Below, one piece after another: positions 781 through 37,263 of a stretch of 41,695 nt of DNA. The notes under the pieces were generated by a model that had not been told where the DNA came from, searched no databases, and saw nothing but the letters and a program-made list of their open reading frames with translations. Positions within the stretch are counted from its first letter, which is position 1. Each line of letters begins with the position of its first letter. Source of the stretch: an uncultured Pelagibacteraceae bacterium (lineage in GTDB: Bacteria > Pseudomonadota > Alphaproteobacteria > Pelagibacterales > Pelagibacteraceae); assembly GCA_902607215.1 (NCBI GenBank), contig CACLJJ010000005.1:1-41695 (forward strand), in the 5' to 3' direction. Both the position numbers and the translations under genes were made by a program.

Positions 781-1689
781 TTATTCAATTATTTCAATTT
801 CGGTTTCTAACTTTATACCAGTTTTTAATTTTACATTTTCTCTAACAAATTCGATCAATTTTTTCATATCGCTGAATGTTGCATCTTTAGAATTAACTAA
901 AAAATTACAATGTTTATTTGAAATCTTGGCATCACCAAAATTTTTTCCTAATGGTATAGATTTTTTTATTAATTCCCAAACTTTAATATCTGTTTGTTCT
1001 ATTGGATTTTTAAATGTACTACCTCCTGTTTTAATTTTTGTAGGTTGTGATTCATCTTTTTGATTTTTAAGTCTTTTAATAGTTTTTTCTATTTCATTTT
1101 TTTTTTTGTTTTCTCCTTTAAATGAAGCACTTAAAAAAATAAAATCTCTATCTAGAGGACTTTGCCTGTATCCAAATTTTATGCTTGATGATGGGATTGT
1201 TTTAATACTGCCACTCTTATCTACTACTTGAACAGAAACTAAAATATCTTTAAATTCTTTGCCAAAACATCCGGAATTTATTCTTAATCCACCCCCAACC
1301 GTTCCTGGTATACATGATAAAAACTCGAAACCTCCAATATTATTATCCATTGCAAACTCAGAAAGATTTTTATCTGTTGCTGCACTACCTGCCACAATAA
1401 GATTGTTAGGAAGTAATGATAAATTAGAAAAATTTTTTCCTAATTTTACTACTACTCCATCAAATTTTTTATCAGTCAGTAAAATATTGGAGCCTGCACC
1501 CAAAACAAATACTTTTTCTTTTTCTCCAAATTTTTTTAAAAACAAAACTAAATCTTTTAATGTATCTGGCTTAAAATAAGCTTTAGTTTTTCCTCCAATA
1601 TTAAACCAATTTGACTTTTTTAAATCATAATCAAATAAAAATTTGCTATTAATTTTATTCGAAAAGTTTTCTAACATATCTTCTTGCAT
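781..1689 (-). CDS. murB: UDP-N-acetylenolpyruvoylglucosamine reductase MurB
   Basis: FAD enzyme that reduces UDP-GlcNAc-enolpyruvate to UDP-MurNAc with NADPH. Visible family features are the SNWFNIGGKTKAYFKP segment, the FAD-binding GAGSNILLTD, GSAATDKNLSEFA, the FEFLSCIPGTVGGGLRINSG block, and late GGSTFKNP carrying the usual catalytic serine region. The ORF track starts at 1719, giving 10 extra residues that overlap murC by 31 bases. I prefer the second methionine (1689) because its ATG shares one base with the murC stop (TAATG), the coupling style of this operon, and gives about 302 residues, normal for the short type II-like MurB of alphaproteobacteria. The start choice is inference; the identity is firm. 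Confidence 0.95.
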   Translation of the reverse strand: MQEDMLENFSNKINSKFLFDYDLKKSNWFNIGGKTKAYFKPDTLKDLVLFLKKFGEKEKVFVLGAGSNILLTDKKFDGVVVKLGKNFSNLSLLPNNLIVAGSAATDKNLSEFAMDNNIGGFEFLSCIPGTVGGGLRINSGCFGKEFKDILVSVQVVDKSGSIKTIPSSSIKFGYRQSPLDRDFIFLSASFKGENKKKNEIEKTIKRLKNQKDESQPTKIKTGGSTFKNPIEQTDIKVWELIKKSIPLGKNFGDAKISNKHCNFLVNSKDATFSDMKKLIEFVRENVKLKTGIKLETEIEIIE

Positions 1690-3083
1690 TATATTAAATT
1701 TGGCAATTCTTTCATCCAATTAGAGATCGATCCCGCACCCATTCCTATTACAATTTTTTTTCCATAAATATTCTGATTAATAAATTTTGCCAAACCAAAC
1801 TGATCCTCAACTAGATATGTTTTGACTTTTGAATTATTGGTAATACTTTTCGCGAAATTGTAATAATTAAACCCTAATTTAATCTTTTCTCCTGCTGAAT
1901 AAATAGGACATAAAATTACTTCATCAGCTTTTTTAAATGAAAAAGTAAATTCTTTTTTAAGATCTTTTAACCTAGAAATTCTATGAGGCTGAAATACACA
2001 GATTATACTTTCTTTTTTATAAACCTCTTTTACACCATTCAATACTTCTTTTATTTCACTGGGATGATGTGCATAGTCATCAAAAAACTCAACTCCCCTA
2101 AATTTAAATATTTTGTTAAATCTTCTTTGAACTCCTTTAAATTCATTTAAACCTTTTTTTATAACATCTCTTGAAATTCCAATAATAAAGGAAACTGCGG
2201 TAGCAGCAGTAGCATTTCTTATATTGTGCAATCCTATTAGTGGAATTTTTATATTTTTAATTAAACTATTTTTTTTACCTTGTAATCGAATATTTAAATC
2301 AAATTTAGAATAATTTTTTGACTGAAAAATATTTTTTATTTGAAATTGAGATTTTGTATTTGTCCCATAAGTATAAAAATTTTTTACCTTAATCTTATTT
2401 ACAAGTTTCTTGTTATTTTTATCATCTAAACAGATAAATGACTTTCCAAATGACGGCACCTTACCAATAAATTCTTCAAATAATCCCAACAAATTATCCA
2501 TAGACTTATAATAATCCATATGTTCCCTATCTATATTTGTAATAATCGAATATGTGGGTAGAACTTTTATAAAGCTACCATCTGACTCATCTAATTCTAA
2601 TATGCTCCATTTGCTTTTGCCTAATCTTGCTGAATTATCAAAAGAGTTAAGAACGCCACCATTTATTATTGTAGGGTCTAATTTTGTTTTAGAAAAAATT
2701 CCAGCGATAAGAGATGTGGTTGTGGTTTTTCCGTGTGACCCTACAACTACAATGTTTTTTGTTAAGGATGCAATGTGTCCTAGCATGTCGCCTCTTTTAT
2801 AAATCGGTAATTGTTTTTTTTTAGCAAATAAAACTTCAGGATTATTATTTTTGATTGCTGATGAAATTACTATGATAGTTGCTTTGCTAATATTTTTTTT
2901 GTTATGCCCTATAATAACTTTAATATTATTTTTTTTTAATCTTTCAATATTTTTATTTGACAAAATATCACTACCTTGAATTTTAAAACCCATTCCTTTC
3001 ATTATTAGAGCAAGGCCGCTCATACCAATGCCACCAATTCCTATAAAATGAATAATTTCAGATTTAGCTAATTCAATTTTCAT
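1689..3083 (-). CDS. murC: UDP-N-acetylmuramate--L-alanine ligase MurC
   Basis: First Mur amino-acid ligase; it adds L-alanine to UDP-MurNAc using ATP in the cytoplasm. The protein of 464 residues is of normal length. It has the N-terminal Rossmann motif HFIGIGGIGMSGLA (about residues 12-25), the ATP-binding P-loop GSHGKTTTT near 115-123, the central LELDESDGSF, and the C-terminal FDDYAHHPSEI segment, all typical of MurC rather than MurD/E/F. The start overlaps the end of murG by 11 bases and its stop overlaps the chosen murB start by one base, so the three are probably translationally coupled. Confidence 0.97.
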   Translation of the reverse strand: MKIELAKSEIIHFIGIGGIGMSGLALIMKGMGFKIQGSDILSNKNIERLKKNNIKVIIGHNKKNISKATIIVISSAIKNNNPEVLFAKKKQLPIYKRGDMLGHIASLTKNIVVVGSHGKTTTTSLIAGIFSKTKLDPTIINGGVLNSFDNSARLGKSKWSILELDESDGSFIKVLPTYSIITNIDREHMDYYKSMDNLLGLFEEFIGKVPSFGKSFICLDDKNNKKLVNKIKVKNFYTYGTNTKSQFQIKNIFQSKNYSKFDLNIRLQGKKNSLIKNIKIPLIGLHNIRNATAATAVSFIIGISRDVIKKGLNEFKGVQRRFNKIFKFRGVEFFDDYAHHPSEIKEVLNGVKEVYKKESIICVFQPHRISRLKDLKKEFTFSFKKADEVILCPIYSAGEKIKLGFNYYNFAKSITNNSKVKTYLVEDQFGLAKFINQNIYGKKIVIGMGAGSISNWMKELPNLI

Positions 3084-6574: not shown

Positions 6575-7659
6575 TATCTAAATTTCAATGTTGCCAATCC
6601 AACCATGGCTAAAATTATAGCCACTATCCAAAACCTGATCACAACTGTAGATTCGGGCCAACCCTTTTTTTCGTAGTGATGGTGAATAGGGGCCATCTTA
6701 AAAATTCTTTTACCTGTCAACTTAAATGAAAATACTTGAACAATTACCGATATAGCTTCCAGAACAAACAATCCTCCTATAATTGCTAAAACTATTTCAT
6801 GCTTAGTTATTATTCCTACCGCACCCAAAGATCCACCTAAAGATAATGAACCTGTATCTCCCATAAATATTTTTGCTGGTGGTGCATTAAACCATAAAAA
6901 GCCAAGACAAGAACCTATAACTGCTCCTAAAAATACCGATACTTCTCCAACTCCTGAAATATACGGTATATGAAGATATTCGGAAAAAACTATGTTTCCT
7001 GTTACATAGCTTATAAATGCAAAACATCCTGCAACCAGTATGACTGGAACAGTGGCTAAACCATCAAGACCATCAGTTAGATTAACTGCATTTGATGAAC
7101 CAACAATTATAAAAACAGAAAAGGGAATAAAAAACCAACCTAAATTAATAATTAAGTTTTTAAAAAAAGGAAAATATAAATTTTCTAAATCAGTATTTTC
7201 TGAAAAATAGCTCAAAAATAATATTCCAATCGTAGCAATTAAAACTTGAGAAATAATTTTTAATTTAAATGAAATACCAGATGAATTTCTAAATTTAATT
7301 TTTTTATAGTCATCATAGGCACCAAGAAGACCATAACTGGCAACAATATAAATTAAAAACCATATATAAATGTTTTTTAAATCTCCCCATAAAAAAATAC
7401 CTGAAAATACCCCTATTAGAATTAAAACTCCCCCCATTGTTGGCGTACCAATTTTTTTTATAGTGTGTTCATCAGGGCCATCTTCTCTAATTGGATCTAA
7501 AATTTTTTTAGTTGAAAAAAAATTTATAAATGGTGTTCCTATAATAAATACAACAAACAAAGAGGTAAATACTGCTAGGCCAGTTCTTACTGTCAAATAT
7601 TTAAAAACATTAAGAAATGAATAAGTATCAATTAATTCTAATGATAGACTATATAGCAT
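6574..7659 (-). CDS. mraY: Phospho-N-acetylmuramoyl-pentapeptide transferase MraY
   Basis: Integral membrane enzyme that transfers phospho-MurNAc-pentapeptide from UDP to undecaprenyl phosphate, giving lipid I. It has about ten membrane segments; the cytoplasmic loops carry the family motifs IKKIGTPTMGGVLI, the adjacent aspartates in YDDYKK, NLTDGLDGLA, the FNAPPAKIFMGDTGSLSLG block, and the late MAPIHHHYEKKGWPES with its three histidines. The 361-residue length equals that of the E. coli type. It lies between murF and murD and overlaps murF by 11 bases. Confidence 0.98.
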   Translation of the reverse strand: MLYSLSLELIDTYSFLNVFKYLTVRTGLAVFTSLFVVFIIGTPFINFFSTKKILDPIREDGPDEHTIKKIGTPTMGGVLILIGVFSGIFLWGDLKNIYIWFLIYIVASYGLLGAYDDYKKIKFRNSSGISFKLKIISQVLIATIGILFLSYFSENTDLENLYFPFFKNLIINLGWFFIPFSVFIIVGSSNAVNLTDGLDGLATVPVILVAGCFAFISYVTGNIVFSEYLHIPYISGVGEVSVFLGAVIGSCLGFLWFNAPPAKIFMGDTGSLSLGGSLGAVGIITKHEIVLAIIGGLFVLEAISVIVQVFSFKLTGKRIFKMAPIHHHYEKKGWPESTVVIRFWIVAIILAMVGLATLKFR

Positions 7660-8788
7660 TAACTTTTTTCCTTTTTAAAATTTTAACAAATTTATTCAGT
7701 CCAGTTAAGTTTGAACCTTTGATCATTAAATAATCATTATTATTTAAATTGTTAACAATCAAATCAAATATTTTTGAAGTTTCTCTTAATATAACGCCTC
7801 TTTTTTCAGCTGTAATTTTTTTGAAGGTCTCCTTTATGGCTTTGCCAAAAACATTCACTTTACCAATTGAAGACGAATTTATAACTTTACTAACTTGTTT
7901 ATGTAGTTTTCTAGTATGATTGCCTAACTCTAGCATATCACCTATTACCAAGTGTTTTTTGCTACTTTTAACTTTAATTGAATTAAAATTTTTAATTGCA
8001 GATGTAAGAGATAGTGGATTAGAATTATAACTCTCATCAATTAAGAATATATTTTTATTTCTAAATTTTATTTTTGAAATATCACCTCTTCCTTCAAGAA
8101 TCTTGTTTTTATAAAATGAAAAATGATTTAAAGAATTTATATCATCTAAAATATATAATATTGTAATACAAGCTAATAAATTTCTTAAATAATTTTCGTA
8201 TATTGAATTTACAAAAAAATATTTGTTTTGATTATTAATTTTTATACATACTTTATATTTTTTTAATTCTTTTTTAATATAATATAAATACACATCGCCT
8301 TTTTTTTTCATACTAAAGGAATAAATTTTTAAATTTTTTTTAAGTCCTATTTTTTTATGAAAATTATAAAATTTATCATCAGCATTTAAAACTAATGACC
8401 CATCTTTCTTAATATTATTAATAATTTCACTTTTTGCTGTTGCAATTTGTTTTATATTTTTAAAATTTTTAGCATGTGCATAAGAGATATTTGTTATTAC
8501 TCCAATATCTGGATTAATAATTTTGCTCAAAAAATCTATCTCTCCTTTTTTATCCATTCCTACCTCGAACACTCCATTTTTATGATTTAGATTTAGATTA
8601 AATAAACTTAAAGGAACTCCATATTTATTGTTAAAAGATTTTGGTGAAAAAGTTGCAGTACTATATTTGTTAATAGTATTGCCTAATAATTCTTTTAAAG
8701 AGGTTTTGCCACAACTTCCTGTAATTGCAACAATTTTGCCATTAAAGTTCTGTCTAACAACTTTCGATGATTTGGTCAAAAATTCCAA
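7649..8788 (-). CDS. murF: UDP-MurNAc-tripeptide--D-Ala-D-Ala ligase MurF (5' part separated by a frame break; probably fused to MurE)
   Basis: Last cytoplasmic Mur ligase, adding D-Ala-D-Ala. The central domain carries the P-loop AITGSCGKTSLKELLG, FNNKYGVPLSLF, the FEVGMDKKGEI region, and ITNISYAHAKNF; the C-terminal domain has LIDESYNSNPLSL and HLVIGDMLELG. The listed start is a TTG inside the protein and is not a real start. Reading the same frame upstream, the MurF N-terminal domain continues as FAIKGKKKDGNFF and GEAFKKGASIAIVNK until about 8930, where it switches to the frame of the murE ORF. So the gene is either broken by one base or expressed by recoding. See the frame-break entry and finding. 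Confidence 0.93.
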   Translation of the reverse strand: MEFLTKSSKVVRQNFNGKIVAITGSCGKTSLKELLGNTINKYSTATFSPKSFNNKYGVPLSLFNLNLNHKNGVFEVGMDKKGEIDFLSKIINPDIGVITNISYAHAKNFKNIKQIATAKSEIINNIKKDGSLVLNADDKFYNFHKKIGLKKNLKIYSFSMKKKGDVYLYYIKKELKKYKVCIKINNQNKYFFVNSIYENYLRNLLACITILYILDDINSLNHFSFYKNKILEGRGDISKIKFRNKNIFLIDESYNSNPLSLTSAIKNFNSIKVKSSKKHLVIGDMLELGNHTRKLHKQVSKVINSSSIGKVNVFGKAIKETFKKITAEKRGVILRETSKIFDLIVNNLNNNDYLMIKGSNLTGLNKFVKILKRKKVNAI

Positions 8789-8841
8789 TGTATTTGAAAC
8801 TTTAATTTGTTTATTTTTTTTAATTGAATTTTTAATTTTAT

Positions 8842-10500
8842 TTACAATTGCAATAGAAGCTCCTTTTTTAAAAGCTTCACCGACAAAAAAATTTCCATCT
8901 TTTTTTTTTCCTTTAATTGCAAAAAAATATCATTTTTTTTTATTTCCTTTGAGTTAATTGATGCTTTTTTTATTTTTGAAGATATTAAAAAATTATTTAA
9001 ATTACTTTCTTCATTTAAAATATTTAATTTTATGCTTTTTGATAATTTTTTATTTTTTTGTTTTATAGATTTAAGAATGATATCTCTGTCAGAAAAAAAT
9101 CTTTTTGACTTTCCATAATCTTGGATATTTTCATGTCCCTTGCCAGCAACAATTAAAATTTCACCTGAATTTAAATTTTTTATTGCTCTATCAATTGCTT
9201 TTTCTCGCTTTGGTATTTCTAAAACTTTAGATTTGCTGATTTTTCTTTTTATCTGACTCCTGATTTTTTTTGGGTCTTCTGTTCTGGGATTATCATCACT
9301 TAGATAAATTTTGTTGCAGTATTGGTTGGCGATTTTACCCATATTTGGTCTTTTAAATTTATCTCTGTCTCCCCCACATCCAAATACAATAGCTATTCTT
9401 CTATCTGCAAATTGCTCTTTTAAATTTTCTAGACATGTATTTAAAGCATCAGGTGTATGAGCATAATCTAAAATAACTATAGAGTTATTTTTAATTTTTC
9501 CAATTTTTTCCAATCTTCCATTTACAGACTTAATTTCATTAATTTTATTAACAATTTTTTTGAATTTTAAACTATTGCTTTCTGCAGCCAACATAGCCAT
9601 TAAAATGTTTTTAATCTGTATTTTTCCAATTAATTTTAGAGAAAAAGAATAAATTAAATTCTTATATTTTATTTTTATAAGCTGTTTTTCACCTAAATAT
9701 CTATGAGAAATTAAACTTATAGTACTTTTATTATTTAAAATTGTTTTTAAATTTAACTTTCTTTTTTTTGATATTTTTTTTATTTTTTTAAATTCTGGTA
9801 TACTTATATCGGTAATTACTTTTGATTTTTTTTTAAGTAATTTATTAAATAAATATAATTTTGAATTAAGATAATCGGAAAAATTTTTATGATAATCTAA
9901 ATGATCATGTGATAAATTGGTAAATATACCTGTTTTAAAATCTAAACCATCAAGTCTATTTTGTTTAAGTCCATGGCTAGAGGCTTCTAAAATAACATTG
10001 TCTATATTTTTTTCTTTTAGTTTTTTTAATTTTAGTCCTAATTGAACTGGATCCAAAGTAGTATTAGATCCAGCAATATTTTTAGTATTTGTTTGAATTC
10101 CTAGTGTTCCTATAGAGGCAACTTTTTTTTTGTTTAGTTTCAAAATTTGAAAATAAAAGTTAGCTATAGAAGATTTGCCATTGGTACCTGTAACTGCAGT
10201 TAAATTTTTTGGTTTTTTAGAAAAAACTCTGTATGCTGTTTCAGCAAGTAGTTTTCGAACATTTTGATACCTTAAATAAAGTACTTCTTTTTTAAACCCT
10301 TGAAATTTCTTATCAGATACAATGGTTCTGGCACCTCTCTTTACTGCTTCATTTATAAATTTGTTACCGTTTTGATTTGTTCCTCTTACAGCAAAAAAAA
10401 TACTATTTTTTTTGCATAGTTTGCTGTTAAAAGTTAAACCTGAAAAATAATGATTCTTAAATTTTGGATTTAAATTTTTAAAATATCGACCTATTAACAT
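8842..10500 (-). CDS. murE: UDP-MurNAc-L-Ala-D-Glu--2,6-diaminopimelate ligase MurE, with start of MurF on its C-terminus
   Basis: Third Mur ligase. It has the N-terminal domain with FTFNSKL-type S/T turn and IFFAVRGTNQNGNKFI, the P-loop AVTGTNGKSSIANF, EASSHGLKQNRLDGL, the ligase segment ILDYAHTPDALNTCL, VFGCGGDRDKFKRP, and SDDNPRTEDP. DNPR is the known determinant for meso-diaminopimelate rather than lysine. MurE homology ends near DRDIILKSI; the remaining roughly 70 residues include ASINSKEIKKNDIF, which is the opening of a MurF N-terminal domain. There is no stop and no methionine between them, so the ancestral product was probably a MurE-MurF fusion of about 950 residues. After the frame break the ORF reads about 20 meaningless residues and stops. 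Confidence 0.94.
   Translation of the reverse strand: MLIGRYFKNLNPKFKNHYFSGLTFNSKLCKKNSIFFAVRGTNQNGNKFINEAVKRGARTIVSDKKFQGFKKEVLYLRYQNVRKLLAETAYRVFSKKPKNLTAVTGTNGKSSIANFYFQILKLNKKKVASIGTLGIQTNTKNIAGSNTTLDPVQLGLKLKKLKEKNIDNVILEASSHGLKQNRLDGLDFKTGIFTNLSHDHLDYHKNFSDYLNSKLYLFNKLLKKKSKVITDISIPEFKKIKKISKKRKLNLKTILNNKSTISLISHRYLGEKQLIKIKYKNLIYSFSLKLIGKIQIKNILMAMLAAESNSLKFKKIVNKINEIKSVNGRLEKIGKIKNNSIVILDYAHTPDALNTCLENLKEQFADRRIAIVFGCGGDRDKFKRPNMGKIANQYCNKIYLSDDNPRTEDPKKIRSQIKRKISKSKVLEIPKREKAIDRAIKNLNSGEILIVAGKGHENIQDYGKSKRFFSDRDIILKSIKQKNKKLSKSIKLNILNEESNLNNFLISSKIKKASINSKEIKKNDIFLQLKEKKKMEIFLSVKLLKKELLLQL
8900..8927 (-). other. Frame break between MurE and MurF at homopolymers (T7 and A10 on the coding strand)
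   Basis: On the coding strand a T7 run (8921-8927) is followed 11 bases later by an A10 run (8900-8909). One extra T would give DIFFAIKGKKKDGNFF, an excellent MurF N-terminal match, and join both ORFs. One extra A in the A10, or a ribosome slipping back one base at A-AAA-AAG (in frame here, identical to the known dnaX -1 slippery heptamer), would give DIFLQLKEKKKDGNFF and also join them. The FAIKG match in the shifted frame upstream of the A10 favours a lost T, that is a mutation or a sequence error. Confidence 0.85.
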
Positions 10501-15492: not shown

Positions 15493-15598
15493 TAAATTAT
15501 TTGGGGTGATTTGTGGTCATATTTTTGATAAACACAAAGTATAGTTTTTTCTTATAATTTAAAATAATGTAGTGAAATAAATATCAAATTCTTGATGC

Positions 15599-15958
15599 TG
15601 CCAGACAAACTATAAGCCGGGTTCTGTCTTTCAAACTTATCATTTGTCTAGGCTTAAAATCACTTTTAAGCTCAAGCAACCAACCCTGATGACTAGCCAA
15701 AGACTGCTTTTAGTTTTTCAACATTGTCATCTCTACTTGGTCTTGCTCTCGGTGGGGTTTTCCATGCGCTAATTGTTGCCAATATAGCCGGTGTGCTCTT
15801 ACCACACCTTTTCACCCTTGCCTTGTTAAGGCGGTTTATTTTCTGTGGCACTATCCCTAGGGTCGCCCCCGCCAGGTATTACCTGGCACCGTGTCTCTGT
15901 AGAGCCCGGACTTTCCTCTTCAACAATAAAGTCAAAGCGACAAGTCATTTGTCTGGCA
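15599..15958 (-). ncRNA. rnpB: RNase P RNA (type A)
   Basis: Catalytic RNA that matures tRNA 5' ends with the RnpA protein. On the minus strand the conserved blocks appear in order: GAGGAAAGTCCGGGCTC (P4/J3-4 region), GGCGGGGGCGACCCTAGGG, AGTGCCACAGAAAATAAACC, GGGTGAAAAGGTGTGGTAAGAGC, and the 3' ACAGAACCCGGCTTATAG. The ends pair perfectly: TGCCAGACAAA at the 5' end with TTTGTCTGGCA at the 3' end (helix P1), which fixes the limits to within a few bases and gives about 360 nt. The 92-residue plus-strand ORF over it is spurious. The 106 bases between this gene and the dcw -35 box show no clear terminator hairpin. Confidence 0.96.
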
Positions 15959-35015: not shown

Positions 35016-35441
35016 ATGAAAAAAAATGAATTCAAAGTTGTAAAAATAGATAAAAATAAAAGTTTATTTAATTACGAAAAAAAAATTCTTATAAAAGAAT
35101 TAACTTTAGATCTTAGGCTTGGATATTATGATTTCGAAAAAAACAAACCTCAAAAAGTTAAATTTAGTCTAGAAATTGATTATGAAGATAAAAAACCAAC
35201 TAATGATAAAGATATAAAATCAATTGTTAATTATGGAAAAGTAGTAAAATTAATAACAAAATTAGTAAAAAATAAACACTACAATTTTTTAGAGACTCTT
35301 GCTGAAGATGTCTTTGATGAATTATTTAAAGATAAAAGAATTGCCAAAATAACACTTCAGATAGAAAAATTAGAAATTTTAAAAGAATGTACTTCAGTCG
35401 GCATTCAAATTACTAAAAAAAGAAGCTATGAAAAGCTCTAA
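35016..35441 (+). CDS. folB: Dihydroneopterin aldolase
   Basis: Converts dihydroneopterin to hydroxymethyl-dihydropterin in folate synthesis. The central sequence has the family's [28 protein letters not shown] (in pieces: [20 protein letters not shown]), [11 protein letters not shown], the [12 protein letters not shown] region with the catalytic-face glutamate, and [12 protein letters not shown]. The N-terminal 25 residues are a lysine-rich extension. It follows the FolM-like gene by 18 bases and overlaps uvrC by 14. Confidence 0.9.
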
Positions 35442-36981
35442 ACTTGGAAAAGAAGTAATTAAAAAAGAACTTTCTTTAATCCCTAAAAGTCCTGGTGTTT
35501 ATAGGATGATAAACCATAAGGGAGATATCTTGTATGTTGGTAAGGCAAAAAACTTACCAAATAGACTTAAAAACTATGTTTCTGAAAAAAATCATATTAT
35601 CAGAACAGAAAGAATGCTTTCTCAAACTTTTAAACTTGAAGTTACAACTACAGCAAACGAAAGTGAGGCATTGCTTTTAGAAGCTAATTTAATAAAAAAA
35701 TTTAAACCAAAATTTAATATTTTACTTAAAGATGATAAATCTTTTCCATTTATTTTTATTGGCCACAAAGATCAATGGCCTCAAGTTATAAAACATAGGG
35801 GAAAAAAAGATAAAGATGGATTTTACTTTGGTCCTTTTGCTTCTGCTGGATCTGCTAACTGGACTATAAAAATGCTTCAGAAAATTTTCCTACTAAGAGT
35901 ATGTGATGAGACTACTTTTAAAAATAGAAAGAGACCCTGTATTTTGTATCAGATAAAAAGATGCTCAGCCCCATGTGTTGGTTATATAGAAAAAAATGAT
36001 TATAAAAACTCAGTTGAAGATGCAATAAAATTTGTTTCTGGAAAATCAAGAGATATTCAAAAAAATTTATCTAAACAAATGGAAGATGCTAGTGAGAAAT
36101 TAAATTTTGAAAAGGCTTCTATAATTAGAGATAGAATTAAATCTTTAAATATCATTCAATCTTCTCAAAGAATTAATGAAGCTAACTTGATTGACGCCGA
36201 TGTGATTGCTGCTTACAAAGAATCAGGCAAAACTTGCATACAAGTATTTTTTTATAGAGGAAAACAAAATTGGGGTAATCAAGCTTACTTCCCTAAACAT
36301 GACCCAGACCAAAATATTTCTGAAATAATGTCTTCTTTTTTGATGCAGTTTTATGAAAACAAGAATGTTCCTAAATTAATAATTTTAAATTTAGATATTG
36401 AGAATAAAATTTTGATCGAAAAAACGTTAAGCATAAAAGAAAATAGTTCTATTTCAATTGATGTAGCTAAAAAAGGAACAAAAGCAAAAGTAGTTGCTCT
36501 TGCTGAAAAAAATGCAAAAGAATCTTTAAATAGAAAACTTTATGAGACAAATAATAATAAAAATTTATTTGAAGGCGTATCAAAAAAATTTGATTTAAAA
36601 AATAACATCAACTTAGTTGAGATATATGATAATAGCCACATCCAAGGAACTAATAGCGTAGGAGCTATGGTTACTTATAGTGACGAAGGTTTTATTAAAA
36701 AAAGATATAGAAAATTTGACATTAAAACAAAGGGTGCAGAACAAGATGATTTTGCTATGTTAAAAGAAGTTCTGACAAGGAGATTTAAAAGAGCAATACT
36801 CGAAAAAGGAAATTACTTAACTCTACCCGATTTAATTTTAATTGATGGTGGTAAAGGTCAATATTCTTCAGCTAAAGAAGTTCTAAATGAATTTGGATTA
36901 TATGACCTTCCAATGATTGCTATTGCGAAAGGGAAGAAAAGAAATAGTGGTGATGAAACATTTTTCTATAACAATAAATAA
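35428..36981 (+). CDS. uvrC: Excinuclease ABC subunit C, truncated by in-frame TAA
   Basis: Dual nuclease of nucleotide excision repair. The GIY-YIG domain is clear ([22 protein letters not shown]), then cysteines of the kind seen in C-x-C-x-C clusters ([17 protein letters not shown]), the UVR motif [13 protein letters not shown] that binds UvrB, and the RNase H-like domain with [18 protein letters not shown] and [10 protein letters not shown]. The ORF ends at TAA 36979-36981 after 517 residues, but the same frame continues without another stop to 37263, giving about 611 residues, as in E. coli (610). The missing part is the (HhH)2 domain needed for 5' incision. A one-base change (GAA or AAA to TAA) explains it. 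Confidence 0.92.
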
Positions 36982-37263
36982 TTTAAATTTGATAAAAATG
37001 ACCCAACTCTATTTTTTTTACAAAGACTAAGGGATGAAGCTCATAGATTTGCTATAAACGCTCATAGAGCAAAAAGAGCAAAGGGAATAAAAAAATCTCT
37101 ATTAGATCAAATTGAAGGAATAGGTTCGGTGAGAAAAAGAGCATTATTAAATCATTTTGGATCAGCAAGAGCTGTTGAATCTGCTAGTTTTGATGAAATT
37201 AAATCTGTTGAAGGAGTTGAGGAAAAAGTAGCAAAAAAAATATATAATTTTTTTCACGAATGA
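36982..37263 (+). pseudogene. uvrC: Detached C-terminal part of uvrC ((HhH)2 domain)
   Basis: In-frame continuation after the [26 protein letters not shown] matches the conserved UvrC stretch before the hairpins, then [21 protein letters not shown] and [17 protein letters not shown] are the two helix-hairpin-helix motifs. It ends with TGA overlapping the pgsA ATG (ATGA), the usual coupling of this operon. There is no start codon of its own. The sequence is undecayed, so the stop is recent, recoded, or an error. Confidence 0.9.

Follow-up and report, generated by a model that had tools for sequence, protein, structure and literature searches.

The window, the whole 41,695-nucleotide stretch of DNA that we analysed, belongs to a draft SAR11 genome (52 contigs, 751 kb, 60% completeness, 27% GC) and carries on its minus strand a murE-murF gene in which the murE and murF portions stand in different reading frames. 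The features at the junction are the following:

8842..10500, minus strand: murE portion of the murE-murF gene plus an out-of-frame tail; a 552-aa ORF with Pfam Mur ligase domains, matching positions 29-549 of NF008896
7649..8929, minus strand: murF portion of the fused gene; the -1 frame, open to the stop at 7649 and matching positions 591-957 of NF008896 (TTG-initiated ORF)
8921..8927, minus strand: T7 run, the site of the frame break; T8 in relatives sharing the flanks
8899..8909, minus strand: A10G tract with an in-frame A-AAA-AAG (8905-8899); also found in relatives with an unbroken frame
8920..8926, minus strand: T-TTT-TTG heptamer in the MurE frame, an alternative slip site; frame counted from position 10500, where the ORF starts

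An earlier, sequence-only reading of this DNA had described the MurE ORF as entering MurF with neither a stop nor a start codon in between, and the ORFs themselves (10500-8842, then on to 7649) agree with that description. The 552-aa MurE ORF terminates in ...INSKEIKKNDIFLQLKEKKKMEIFLSVKLLKKELLLQL*, having departed from the MurF N-terminal motif (INSKEIKKNDIF) after approximately residue 526 and run out of frame from there, while the MurF frame opens directly after the TGA at 8932-8930 and continues to 7649. MurF was also said to have no genuine start, and this was found to be the case: the first ATG, GTG, or TTG of its frame is an internal TTG at 8788, positioned inside the MurF N-terminal domain and after its N-terminal motifs. 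Since no possible start precedes it, reinitiation of MurF from a start of its own was rejected. The one-base difference between the frames was likewise placed correctly, with an offset of -1 and the differing base at the T7 run (8921-8927), near the A10 tract (8900-8909, then G). The overlap of the two frames (8929-8845) contains both tracts, and any -1 realignment or one added A restores MurF.

The two pieces match consecutive stretches of a single protein family model for bifunctional MurE/MurF, NCBIfam NF008896 (PRK11929). Both domains are present in order in one gene, broken in the window copy by one base. The strict curated cut-off of this model is 1023 bits; the window pieces stay below it at 558 and 322 bits, and the intact fusions of the genus score approximately 840-1197 bits, with a score above the cut-off in 1 of 117 genomes. 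Scores below the cut-off indicate the same architecture and not formal membership of the equivalog model, and by this comparison the SAR11 fusions are a diverged group sharing the NF008896 architecture. The MurE-MurF fusion of Bordetella pertussis, which is 945 residues long, has been studied biochemically (PMC6420597); the window gene is like it in domain order and size and differs from it in being split by the frame break. The fusion architecture itself is thus already known, from both the NCBIfam family and Bordetella.

Across this SAR11 genus, MurE and MurF are normally fused into one protein of about 950 residues. A protein search found murE in 143 of 201 genus genomes, with an open frame of approximately 940-965 aa wherever the contig is long enough, and among the fetched loci other than the window that span the junction, the frame is continuous in 101 of 101 (76 distinct junction sequences; 67 of 67 in an earlier subset). 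It is also continuous in the single-contig complete genomes G012, G082, G298, G385, G402, G408, and G411. In an order-level search, MurE and MurF were fused in other genera of the family as well (g5 and g6) and separate in g2, g7, and further genera; several genera of the wider order, e.g., g7 in family f2, have separate murE and murF genes of approximately 480 and 460 aa. With the two states distributed in this way, fusion or fission must have occurred within the order, and the fusion is a lineage trait near this genus. In the relatives, one ribosome would cross both domains with no change of frame and yield a bifunctional ligase, of which the MurE part, judging from family membership, would add the third residue to the peptidoglycan precursor and the MurF part would then add D-Ala-D-Ala.

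The frame break of the window has no counterpart among these genomes. A degenerate pattern for the motif one T short matched in 1 of 399 genus genomes, the sole match being the window itself (8910-8931), and the T7 frame break was found in 0 of the 398 others. Near relatives with the same flanks carry T8, and relatives with T6 have a preceding ATA or ATC and are also in frame, so that the comparison with close SAR11 genomes called for in the sequence-only reading ended in a continuous frame of about 950 residues. G084, a close relative, has the same flanks, T8, the same A10G, and a continuous frame. The A10G tract also occurs in G247, L039, L041, and L079, all with continuous frames, and in unbroken relatives it is accompanied by T8 or T9; a T7 string in L078 is located away from the junction. 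Conservation of the broken frame together with A10G, which would have spoken for recoding, was therefore not what the relatives displayed. Of the two readings offered earlier for the missing T, the one that treats it as a mutation or sequence error agrees with the continuous T8 relatives, and the alternative of recoding does not.

MurF beyond the break shows no decay. Its frame runs for 422 residues with no stop, and its mean identity to distant relatives is 0.566 vs. 0.587 for MurE, a drop of 0.021 that falls within the range of 0.003-0.037 seen in intact relatives. Differences from G084 by codon position (114/80/196 in MurE and 100/81/177 in MurF) have a similar third-position excess in both halves. 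A search of the assembly, which is 60% complete, for a second MurF found none; its four Mur_ligase_M domains belong to murC, murD, murE, and murF, which all lie inside the window. The undecayed state of MurF implies that the break is very recent, is not real, or is bypassed.

The E. coli dnaX gene undergoes a programmed -1 frameshift at A_AAA_AAG. The window has the identical heptamer in frame, and as the sequence-only reading stated, a slip there (8905-8899, offset -1) gives the MurF frame. A heptamer of the form X-XXY-YYZ in the upstream frame is however found twice at the junction, as A-AAA-AAG and, unmentioned in the sequence-only reading, as T-TTT-TTG (8926-8920). A -1 slip at the latter retains most of DIFFAIKG (DIF-L-AIKG), and a slip at the former would turn the conserved FAIKG motif into LQLKE; as such, T-TTT-TTG would be the better slip site, were there one. 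The slip sites at the junction are not beyond chance: the 35 window genes (13,007 codons) contain 13 in-frame A-AAA-AAG, 6 T-TTT-TTG, and 194 homopolymer heptamers in total, with at least one in-frame homopolymer slippery heptamer in 33 of 35 genes. RNA folding, covering pseudoknot-free structures, was used to look for a stable stimulator a few bases past the slip site and returned only a weak hairpin, GAAGCUUUU..GGAGCUUC, approximately 20 nt downstream of A-AAA-AAG (z of -1.4 to -1.6, with folding as good in up to 18 of 200 shuffles). Relatives in which A10G stands beside T8 or T9 keep their frame continuous, which indicates that A-AAA-AAG merely follows from the use of Lys codons at 27% GC; the tract encodes Lys-Lys-Lys-Asp and gives no sign of recoding.

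Taken at its strongest, the case for programmed -1 ribosomal frameshifting, by which MurE with a short tail and a MurE-MurF fusion would be made in a set proportion, consists of a dnaX-like heptamer that is correctly framed, a shift that leads into the MurF frame, and a hairpin downstream. The heptamer is however common by chance and stands in relatives that have no break, the hairpin is weak and far from the site, and the slip would sacrifice a conserved motif. Unlike in dnaX, the stimulatory structure is unconvincing, Lys codons in a gene this rich in AT account for the heptamer, and break and slip site are not conserved together in relatives, 0 of 398 genomes sharing the break and all 101 loci being continuous. 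Programmed frameshifting is thus extremely improbable, and on the terms that the sequence-only reading itself had set, the sequences of the relatives refute it. Slightly less improbable, but still very unlikely, is that T8 truly mutated to T7 in a living lineage and that slippage partly makes good the loss. The rescue could come from RNA polymerase slippage at A10 (+1 A) or from ribosomes leaking into the -1 frame at either heptamer, T-TTT-TTG or A-AAA-AAG, and both homopolymer tracts do lie within the frame overlap, upstream of a MurF that is undecayed in a draft with no second copy. Transcriptional slippage is documented as rescuing homopolymer frameshifts in Blochmannia and Buchnera (PMC3017870; reviewed in PMC5009743), and repeats of 3-8 bases were bypassed in laboratory drift (PMC3812077). 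The window resembles these endosymbionts in its AT-rich reduced genome and in having a homopolymer indel in a housekeeping gene that is otherwise intact; it differs in that the break is unconserved and known here from the sequence of one draft genome alone, and MurF would look just as undecayed were the break not real. Rescue by lengthening the upstream A9 run (ATAAAAAAAAATGA) by one A was rejected, since the sequence shows that the insertion would introduce an in-frame TGA.

If the break were real, MurE would carry a 26-residue wrong tail and MurF would arise through slippage only, with T-TTT-TTG as the better ribosomal site and an extra A copied into A10 as the other route. We consider it very unlikely that a recent T7 lineage of SAR11 makes its essential MurF half solely in this manner, by polymerase or ribosome slippage at T7/A10. 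Leaky slippage through these tracts could occur, and nothing points to a programmed system. Were the break both real and tolerated, rescue by slippage would extend beyond insect endosymbionts to an essential cell-wall gene of a free-living AT-rich ocean bacterium.

With high confidence, then, we regard the locus as an ordinary murE-murF gene of the genus with a one-base poly-T contraction (T8 to T7) that is either an error or a recent private mutation. Between these two, an error of sequencing, amplification, or assembly in an incomplete draft is probably the better explanation than a recent mutation private to the cell or strain. A scan of the window with the proteins of four related genomes revealed one other interrupted gene, uvrC (35428-37262, plus strand), with an in-frame TAA at 36979-36981 after codon 517 and the same frame intact to approximately 37260; relatives at 79-85% identity have Ser or Glu in place of the TAA. 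Finding two housekeeping genes broken within 41.7 kb of a draft that is itself incomplete tips the balance somewhat toward an artefact and away from a biological cause, short of proof. However, real mutations could also produce a rate as low as one frameshift plus one nonsense codon per 41.7 kb, uvrC is broken by a substituted base and not by a homopolymer error, so that the two lesions may differ in cause, and the nearest relative compared is at 75% nucleotide identity, a distance at which error and true mutation are inseparable. A literature search for SAR11 single-cell genomes with homopolymer frameshifts found no paper. Caution is warranted: with slippery heptamers in almost all genes, a homopolymer break of a single base in an AT-rich draft genome can pass for a programmed frameshift.

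Elsewhere in the window, the longest frame of murB (781-1719, minus strand) begins with TTG and overlaps the end of murC by 31 bases; translation may instead begin at an ATG further downstream. An RNase P RNA class A gene (Rfam RF00010) lies at 15597-15956 on the minus strand, directly upstream of mraZ, the head of the cell-division cluster.
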